From positions 1 to 36,594 of the forward strand of contig JALSKB010000212.1 of assembly GCA_026989035.1 (NCBI GenBank): 36,594 nt of DNA, given 5' to 3'. Shown piece by piece: positions 20,971 through 22,690 of this stretch. Numbering within the stretch: position 1 is the stretch's first letter; the number at the start of each line of letters is the position of its first letter. This stretch comes from Saprospiraceae bacterium. Lineage in GTDB: Bacteria; Bacteroidota; Bacteroidia; Chitinophagales; Saprospiraceae. The position numbers were made by a program, and so were the translations under genes. The notes under the pieces are model-generated. The model saw only the letters and a program-made list of their open reading frames with translations, had not been told where the DNA came from and searched no databases.

Positions 20971-21834
20971 TCAGCTAAAAACCCGAAGTTGCTTCCCCCT
21001 GCTCGTCTCCTCTTCAATCGAAGATTCCGGCTCCCGGTTTGCCTGTTCGCTACAATCCGGCAAAAGCCTCTTGATCAATCTCAGGCGGTACAAGTAATTG
21101 CCACGTTCGGTATCGAAAAGTCCGAAGTGATCAAAAAGGTCTATGCGCACCCTGTCGTGAACGTGCACAACTTGCCCGTCTTCCAAGGCTATGCCTACGT
21201 AAAAACGGTGGTTCTGAAAACCTTCGAAAAAGAGCAAATCGCCCAATTGAACCTGTTGCACAAAAGGCACCATGCGCCCCCAAAGGAGTTGCTCCAAAGG
21301 CCGACGAGGCAACTTATAGCCCAACAAACTATAAATCAATTGCACAAAGCCACTGCCATCTATGCCCAAATGCGTCCGACCGCCGTGCTGAAAGGGCGCA
21401 TTCATCAGTTGTACAACCAATTGCTTTAGCAAATTCGGATCCGCCCGCAAATCTCGGGGGAAGACCGCTCTGCCACTAAAGGTGTAGGCATCACCGCCAA
21501 GGACAAAGCCCATGCCATCAAAAGCCGGCAAACGGGCACCCAGGGTAATGGGCTGAAAAAAATCCGGTGTGCGCAAAGACTCCTTCAATTCAAAATTAAA
21601 GGCGAATTCCTCTTGATAGCGTTTGTATTCCGCTTCTCCAATGAGGTGGATTTGGGCTGTGCGCACCCAGCCCTCTACCTGATCAATTGATGTCTGCACT
21701 TTGACCCACGCCTTCCCTTTGAACTCCACAATCTGCATCAATTCACCGAAGAGCAACTGGCTGAGCTGTTCCGAACGATCTGAGGCCGAAGAACGAATAG
21801 GTATTACACTCAAAGGGCAAATGGCATAAGACAT
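20971..21834 (-). CDS. SH3 plus NlpC/P60-like protein lacking catalytic Cys and His
   Basis: 287 residues from MSYAICPLSVIPIR; a longer frame starts at 21870, overlapping the exonuclease, but the SH3-domain proteins of this family begin with this MSYxICxLS sequence. The N-terminal bacterial SH3 domain (~1-65) is followed by NlpC/P60 features: FQHGGRTHLGIDGSGFVQLI, LPRRPLEQ, GDLLFF, VGIALEDGQVVHVH. The catalytic Cys of the family motif DCSG is Gly160 (codon 21357-21355, GGC against TGC). The catalytic His of HVGI is Tyr212 (21201-21199, TAC against CAC). His224 remains. I infer a cell-wall-binding pseudo-peptidase. No signal peptide is evident. Transcribed after apbE and the exonuclease. Confidence 0.85.
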   Translation of the reverse strand: MSYAICPLSVIPIRSSASDRSEQLSQLLFGELMQIVEFKGKAWVKVQTSIDQVEGWVRTAQIHLIGEAEYKRYQEEFAFNFELKESLRTPDFFQPITLGARLPAFDGMGFVLGGDAYTFSGRAVFPRDLRADPNLLKQLVVQLMNAPFQHGGRTHLGIDGSGFVQLIYSLLGYKLPRRPLEQLLWGRMVPFVQQVQLGDLLFFEGFQNHRFYVGIALEDGQVVHVHDRVRIDLFDHFGLFDTERGNYLYRLRLIKRLLPDCSEQANREPESSIEEETSRGKQLRVFS

Positions 21835-21862: not shown

Positions 21863-22690
21863 TCAAGCATTCTGCTTTCTGTCCCGCTTGTATTCCTGTA
21901 AAAGCCGGCGGGTGATCTTTTTCACCTGAGCGGAAAACTCTTTTTCCTGGATCCAATTAAAATACTGGCGGTTTTCGTAAAGAACTTTGCCCACAGGCTG
22001 CCCCACAAACTTGCCAAAATTAAAAACGATTTCTCCCGAATCCGTTCGACGCAATTTGCGAGTTACATCCACCGAATGTTGATCTCGGGTAAAAGCACAA
22101 ATCGAAGCTACATTTTTGCCGAAAGGCACGGGTCTCTCCTCTCCCTCAGCATCGATGTAAACCCCTCCCACATAGCGCTCCAACTGCCCGTCTAAAACCT
22201 TAACGGTAGCACGCACATCGGCCAGGGCATCGTGGGCATCTTCCAATTTTTCCTCGCAATAAAACCGAAGCGCTGCCCGCAAAGTACGCGGCTCCATCTT
22301 GTGGAAAAGGGTCTGTATGTCCAACAAGTGACGCTTCTCCAGGTCGAAATCCAACCCTGCCCGGGCAAATTCCTCAACCAACATGGGCACATCAAAGCGA
22401 TTGGAATTGTAACCCGCCAGATCCGCATCGCCAATGAAGTCATACAGCTTTTGAGCAACTTGAGCAAAAACGGGCTTATTGCGCAAATCAGCAGGCTTAA
22501 TGCCGTGCACGGCCATAGCTTCTTCCGAAATGGGCATACCGGGATTGATCAACATCTCCAATTCTTCGGGCGCACGGCCATCGGCAAAATATTTGATGAT
22601 GGCAATTTGCAGAATGCGATCCTGCATCACGTTCAAACCCGTAGCTTCCAGGTCAAAAAAACACAGATCGCGATCGAGTTCCAATTTCAT
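21863..22690 (-). CDS. DnaQ-like DEDDh 3'-5' exonuclease
   Basis: 275 residues. Exo I FFDLEATGL (Asp13, Glu15), Exo II LAGYNSNRFDVPML, and Exo III HDALADVRAT place it in the DEDDh family of DNA polymerase III epsilon-like and RNase T-like exonucleases. After ~190 comes a C-terminal segment FNFGKFVGQPVGKVL..FNWIQEKEF of the DUF3820 type often attached to such nucleases. A function in DNA repair or RNA processing is likely; the substrate is not predictable. The gene lies 58 nt after apbE and 28 nt before the pseudo-NlpC gene, all minus, so probably one operon. Confidence 0.92.
   Translation of the reverse strand: MKLELDRDLCFFDLEATGLNVMQDRILQIAIIKYFADGRAPEELEMLINPGMPISEEAMAVHGIKPADLRNKPVFAQVAQKLYDFIGDADLAGYNSNRFDVPMLVEEFARAGLDFDLEKRHLLDIQTLFHKMEPRTLRAALRFYCEEKLEDAHDALADVRATVKVLDGQLERYVGGVYIDAEGEERPVPFGKNVASICAFTRDQHSVDVTRKLRRTDSGEIVFNFGKFVGQPVGKVLYENRQYFNWIQEKEFSAQVKKITRRLLQEYKRDRKQNA
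22115..22128 (+). repeat. Dispersed GAAA-loop hairpin motif inside the exonuclease gene
   Basis: TTTGCCGAAAGGCA. On the coding (minus) strand it encodes V-P-F-G-K-N. Confidence 0.7.

Follow-up and report, generated by a model that had tools for sequence, protein, structure and literature searches.

The 36,594-nucleotide window analysed here (Saprospiraceae bacterium, assembly GCA_026989035.1, contig JALSKB010000212.1) encodes an SH3b-NlpC/P60 protein in which both the catalytic cysteine and the catalytic histidine have been replaced. Loss of the cysteine is a broad feature of Saprospiraceae, and the window's genus stands at the extreme end, with the histidine gone too. The reading that we lean towards, from sequence comparisons, is that the protein is a cytosolic, non-catalytic binding module derived from a former murein-peptide recycling enzyme and probably tethered to the sliding clamp.

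A YkfC-type fold without its catalytic dyad

The gene is part of a 3.12-Mb assembly that is 97% complete. Its frame is unbroken from the ATG at 21834, the start used in orthologues, to the stop at 20971; another in-frame ATG lies further upstream at 21870. The main features are listed below.

20971–21834 (−): SH3b-NlpC/P60 pseudo-peptidase gene, 287 aa plus stop
21649–21804 (−): N-terminal SH3b domain, residues 11–62 (Pfam SH3_16/SH3_3; alignment)
21139–21399 (−): NlpC/P60 domain, residues 146–232 (Pfam PF00877, E = 7e-14; fold match to 3h41, Z 27.2)
21355–21357 (−): Gly160 codon GGC, catalytic Cys position; DCSG has become D-G-S-G
21301–21303 (−): Arg178, in place of YkfC Asp256 (L-Ala amine binder)
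21199–21201 (−): Tyr212 codon TAC, catalytic His position; HVGI has become Y-V-G-I
21163–21165 (−): His224, third triad residue, conserved in 170 of 170 orthologues

Both the profile match (52 bits for NLPC_P60, PF00877, against a cut-off of 23) and the papain-like fold place the protein in the NlpC/P60 fold family of C40 homologues, and SH3_16 and SH3_3 score above their Pfam gathering thresholds. The AlphaFold2 model (pLDDT 94, pTM 0.88) matches Bacillus cereus YkfC (3h41) over its whole length (246 residues, rmsd 2.2), as well as the Bacteroides dipeptidyl-peptidase VI (DPP VI) structures 3npf and 4r0k. Architecture and fold are thus held in common with the YkfC/DPP VI enzymes (B. cereus 3h41; Bacteroides BT_1314, 3pvq/4r0k; BACOVA_00612, 3npf; C. 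trachomatis YkfC), the structures aligning over 246–251 residues at Z scores of 26–27. This includes the packing of the N-terminal SH3b domain on NlpC/P60. No signal peptide was found in the window protein, and orthologues begin at the first SH3b strand; chlamydial YkfC, a cytosolic tripeptide hydrolase, also has no signal peptide (PMC9928106). The first SH3b strand holds Cys6 (21817–21819), which 87 of 91 Cys-less and 63 of 79 Cys-bearing orthologues retain. The genome has one other NlpC/P60 gene, encoding an intact small lipoprotein of the MepS/Spr type.

The Cys-His dyad needed for C40 peptidase activity is absent from the window protein, where Gly160 and Tyr212 occupy the two sites. The codons are as the preliminary description gave them (GGC at 21357–21355, TAC at 21201–21199), and an orthologue alignment finds both changes in each of the genus's three genomes. 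The two other genomes carry orthologues 74–77% identical to the window protein, and the three share Gly and Tyr with partly different codons (GGC/GGC/GGC and TAC/TAC/TAT). The segment around the dead site, residues 149–165, is identical at 17 of 17 positions across these three proteins, compared to 75% over residues 1–245.

The pair of Cys-less loci with unsaturated dS (L004/L005, dS 0.35) has a dN/dS of 0.056, close to that of two neighbouring genes used for comparison (0.04 and 0.07). Another Cys-less pair gave 0.04, Cys-bearing pairs gave 0.04–0.10, and the window against L004 gave about 0.10 with dS near saturation. As judged from these sequences, the pseudo-peptidase gene is under purifying selection across the lineage. 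Because both changes recur in three genomes with partly different codons and dN/dS is low, neither sequencing error nor decay accounts for them: error is ruled out by the three genomes sharing the changes, and general decay by the open frames and low dN/dS. The proposals that the gene is not decaying generally and that a pseudo-peptidase has been kept by selection (shared changes, dN/dS 0.06) are therefore borne out.

Natural non-catalytic forms of the domain are known elsewhere. One, the NlpC/P60 protein RipD (Rv1566c) of M. tuberculosis, has an altered triad, Ala83-Ser132-Glu144, and is described as a cell-wall protein that binds peptidoglycan and carries pentapeptide repeats at its C-terminus (PMC12067865). 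The window protein resembles it in having triad residues replaced, but has an SH3b domain, a Gly-Tyr-His triad and a clamp-like tail, and has neither signal peptide nor pentapeptide repeats. It scores 30.8 bits against the RipD-type model NCBIfam NF033743 (cut-off 215), and RipD-like export is ruled out by the missing signal peptide.

Loss of the cysteine and of pocket residues across Saprospiraceae

A family-wide search gave matches at E ≤ 1e-10 in 302 of 398 genomes. From family and order we aligned 110 orthologues and then added 60 more family members, for a total of 170. At the catalytic Cys position these carry C (79), A (39), S (34), G (13), D (2) and one each of T, K and P. The cysteine is hence absent in 91 proteins, nearly all from Saprospiraceae, with seven different replacements. 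The His212 position is far more uniform, with H in 167 of 170 and Y in the remaining three, all from the window's genus. The preliminary description was right that a pseudoenzyme is under selection, but its scope was too narrow given a family-wide loss. Likewise, "single-base changes" describes the two codons correctly in terms of the genetic code; as history it does not hold, the cysteine having been lost in an old, broad group.

The best 110-row tree implies about seven changes at the Cys position, of which only one or two are forced by well-supported branches, and an AU test (52-row subset, pocket columns left out) did not reject a single Cys-less origin (p = 0.075). With the pocket columns left out, the window's genus is not placed firmly inside the main Cys-less group, so its loss of the cysteine may be separate from that of the main group.

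Residues of YkfC that bind L-Ala-γ-D-Glu have been listed by Xu et al. (PMC2954226). Mapped by spacing and sequence alignment, rather than by residue-by-residue superposition, V53, F148, H150, R178 and P179 of the window protein occupy the positions of YkfC Y118, Y226, W228, D256 and S257. In YkfC the free L-Ala amine is bound by Tyr118 and Asp256; their counterparts are Val53 and Arg178 in the window protein and Thr and Lys in sister species. Cys-bearing orthologues match the YkfC/DPP VI enzymes at the pocket residues almost throughout: all 79 have Y53, Y148, W150 and S161, and 78 have D178. Among the 91 Cys-less orthologues, in contrast, Y53 remains in 15, Y148 in 34, W150 in 53, S161 in 19 and D178 in 10, with Glu at position 178 in 38. 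Unlike the characterized enzymes, the window protein has lost Cys, His and the Tyr118, Tyr226, Trp228 and Asp256 contacts.

When Cys-less proteins are compared with Cys-bearing ones of the same family, column 53 (YkfC Tyr118) shows the largest entropy rise of 261 columns, and columns 178, 161 and 150 (equivalent to Asp256, Ser239 and Trp228) are among the top eight; pocket relaxation in the Cys-less group has a permutation p below 1e-5. The L-Ala-γ-D-Glu contacts were relaxed together with Cys loss, suggesting that the known binding mode for stem peptides disappeared along with the nucleophile and making canonical stem-peptide binding by Cys-less forms unlikely. Asp159, Arg177 and both histidines are retained in the group (His212 in most members), and at the sequence level the groove itself is not collapsed.

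These results qualify the preliminary view that the fold is well preserved, which stands for the overall fold (pLDDT 94) and for His224, but not for the substrate pocket. Its suggestion of a protein that binds stem peptides without cutting them is unlikely for the known binding mode, as the side chains for the L-Ala amine and γ-D-Glu were lost with the cysteine. The substrate shield, also suggested, is unlikely to act on periplasmic peptidoglycan, because there is no signal peptide.

The C-terminal tail and its clamp-like motif

The most informative new lead, missed in the preliminary description, is a clamp-like C-terminal tail.

20974–21066 (−): C-terminal tail, residues 257–287, mostly of low model confidence (pLDDT 58–69, last three blocks of ten)
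20977–20991 (−): QLRVF, a degenerate version of the clamp-binding-like motif Q-x-x-[LIM]-F at the C-terminus of the family

In the model the tail is probably disordered. Outgroup proteins stop directly after the last core strand, whereas most Saprospiraceae orthologues, Cys-bearing and Cys-less, have 20–30 extra residues ending in Q-x-x-L-F (NQVELF, QQIELF, NQIELF and NQVALF, among others), an addition that also sets them apart from the YkfC/DPP VI enzymes. Of 65 tails, 53 have the pattern Q..[LIM]F near the end, whereas per-tail shuffles average 0.57; among 237 other open frames of the same loci it occurs in 5. With the pattern fixed beforehand, a second set of 60 genomes gave 51 of 55 tails, against 0.42 after shuffling. 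The motif is conserved while the linker before it is variable (3–4 bits per column).

Bacterial sliding-clamp motifs have the form QL[S/D]LF, or more generally QxxLF, and often lie in C-terminal, flexible segments (PMC12309361, PMC4549789, PMC9690074). In the same genomes, DinB proteins have QIDLF, QINLF, QMALF, QLELF and QMELF. We infer from this likeness that the tail would bind the DnaN sliding clamp. In known DnaN clients such as PolC and many transposases, a short motif ends a flexible tail and is kept despite divergence of the linker, as here; those clients act on DNA. Our search of the literature on DnaN clients found no client of NlpC/P60 type.

The window's own motif, QLRVF-S, fits the clamp consensus at positions 1, 2 and 5 and departs from it at position 4, where it has Val. 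Its tethering may therefore be weakened, although the motif is intact in a sister species (QQVLF). DinB of the window's genus (L141, L134; G000, G001) reads EPLQLF, without the canonical Gln, compared to the QIDLF-like motifs of relatives; a shift of the clamp motif within the genus is possible.

Tail and Cys loss do not always go together. Cys-less proteins make up 69 of 104 motif-bearing rows and 21 of 65 motif-free rows, and tailless Cys-less orthologues exist. Since Cys-bearing sister proteins also have tails, gain of the tail may have preceded loss of the cysteine in the main group.

Genome context, alternative explanations and proposed role

Directly upstream, 28 bp away, lies a gene that is linked to the pseudo-peptidase in all three members of the genus, and only there.

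21863–22690 (−): DnaQ/ExoX-like 3'-5' exonuclease gene, upstream neighbour

Outside the genus the conserved neighbours are not replication genes, but a PorP/SprF gene and cysteine synthase. In 57 loci (L095–L114 and others, e.g., L080:2329-3594), Cys-bearing as well as Cys-less and none from the window's genus, the PorP/SprF-type (type IX secretion) gene is found some 180 bp upstream, in the opposite orientation. It was set aside as a functional partner, being present with and without the cysteine; many Cys-bearing flanks were also too short for comparison.

Two gene associations bear on murein recycling. A full-length Mpl/MurC-like ligase other than MurC occurs in 34 of 37 Cys-bearing genomes, compared to 10 of 43 Cys-less ones, and in none of the window's genus; it scores below the NCBIfam cut-offs for mpl and murC (e.g., L124:322-1671), so that its name is provisional. 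An intact lipoprotein-type DPP VI paralogue with DCSG shows the opposite distribution (21 of 43 Cys-less, 0 of 37 Cys-bearing genomes), and is likewise not present in the window's genus. This paralogue (L115–L121, e.g., L115:38-1234) is a second SH3b-NlpC/P60 protein, about 400 aa long and with a lipoprotein signal. Fisher tests gave p = 2e-10 for the ligase and 2e-7 for the lipoprotein, over genomes that are not phylogenetically independent and offer too few independent contrasts for a sign test. The associations fit an altered recycling of murein peptides that left the cytosolic hydrolase without its original task, the protein being retained for a new one. The enolase-superfamily family PF13378 was dropped as a marker of L-Ala-D/L-Glu epimerase, as it was too broad to inform.

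Closest to the preliminary description is a stem-peptide sensor, in which the dead protein would bind cytosolic murein peptides and report wall turnover. The retained fold, Asp159, Arg177, His224 and, in most members, His212 would suit such a role, as would the resemblance of Cys-bearing sisters, with all YkfC contacts intact, to tripeptide hydrolases, and the exchange of Asp178 for another acid, Glu, in 38 of 91 Cys-less members. We nevertheless consider a sensor unlikely: the Tyr118, Tyr226, Ser239 and Asp256 equivalents are relaxed group-wide, the window has Arg for Asp256 and His for Trp228, and the Mpl-like ligase that accompanies the Cys-bearing form is missing from 33 of 43 Cys-less genomes, those of the window's genus included. 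Slightly less probable still is a pure scaffold that stabilises another protein, its tail binding a partner other than the clamp, such as a chaperone or protease adaptor. Pseudo-peptidases of other families are often scaffolds or regulators (PMC11266112), and Q-x-x-L-F is so short that a partner cannot be named from sequence alone; the identity of the motif and its terminal, flexible position, however, match known clamp motifs and the DinB motifs of the same genomes.

A relaxed relic, drifting with little function once its work had passed to periplasmic or other enzymes, and with the window's genus furthest along, would be in keeping with the lipoprotein paralogue found only beside Cys-less forms and with the lost ligase. 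It is improbable given dN/dS values as low as those of Cys-bearing pairs, frames complete in diverged species, a tail motif that stays while its linker varies, and the 17 identical residues of segment 149–165. We give hardly any credence to catalysis by a substitute residue, whether Ser (at the Cys site in 34 of 170 orthologues) or another cysteine such as Cys6. Other members have Gly, Ala, Lys or Pro at the site, and the window has Gly and also lacks the His; Cys6, though present in 87 of 91 Cys-less members, sits in the SH3b domain and is common in Cys-bearing members too (63 of 79).

For the clamp-tethered binding module that we favour, the ancestor would have been a YkfC/DPP VI-type enzyme cutting murein tripeptides for recycling. 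The sequences show the nucleophile lost and the L-Ala-γ-D-Glu pocket relaxed, with the fold kept. The tail would dock the protein onto DnaN, and the remodelled SH3b/NlpC groove, its His-His pair still there in most relatives, could bind an altered ligand or another protein, without catalysis, where DNA is synthesised or repaired. Points against this reading are the window motif's departure at position 4, the missing Gln in the genus's DinB, the tailless Cys-less orthologues, and conserved neighbours outside the genus that have no replication role. A bolder version, possible but tentative, is that in Saprospiraceae a peptidase fold from murein recycling first came to the clamp and only later ceased to be catalytic, leaving a pseudo-peptidase associated with the replisome.

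Among the Saprospiraceae sampled, Cys-less forms are no rarer than intact ones, although they would be annotated as C40 peptidases. The family offers a natural pseudoenzyme series: intact enzyme, enzyme with tail, tail without catalysis, and loss of both triad residues. If the tail binds the clamp, a cell-wall-enzyme fold would be present at the replication machinery, linking wall metabolism and DNA; a replisome-associated pseudo-peptidase, if real, could connect the state of the cell wall, or of another ligand, to DNA replication or repair.
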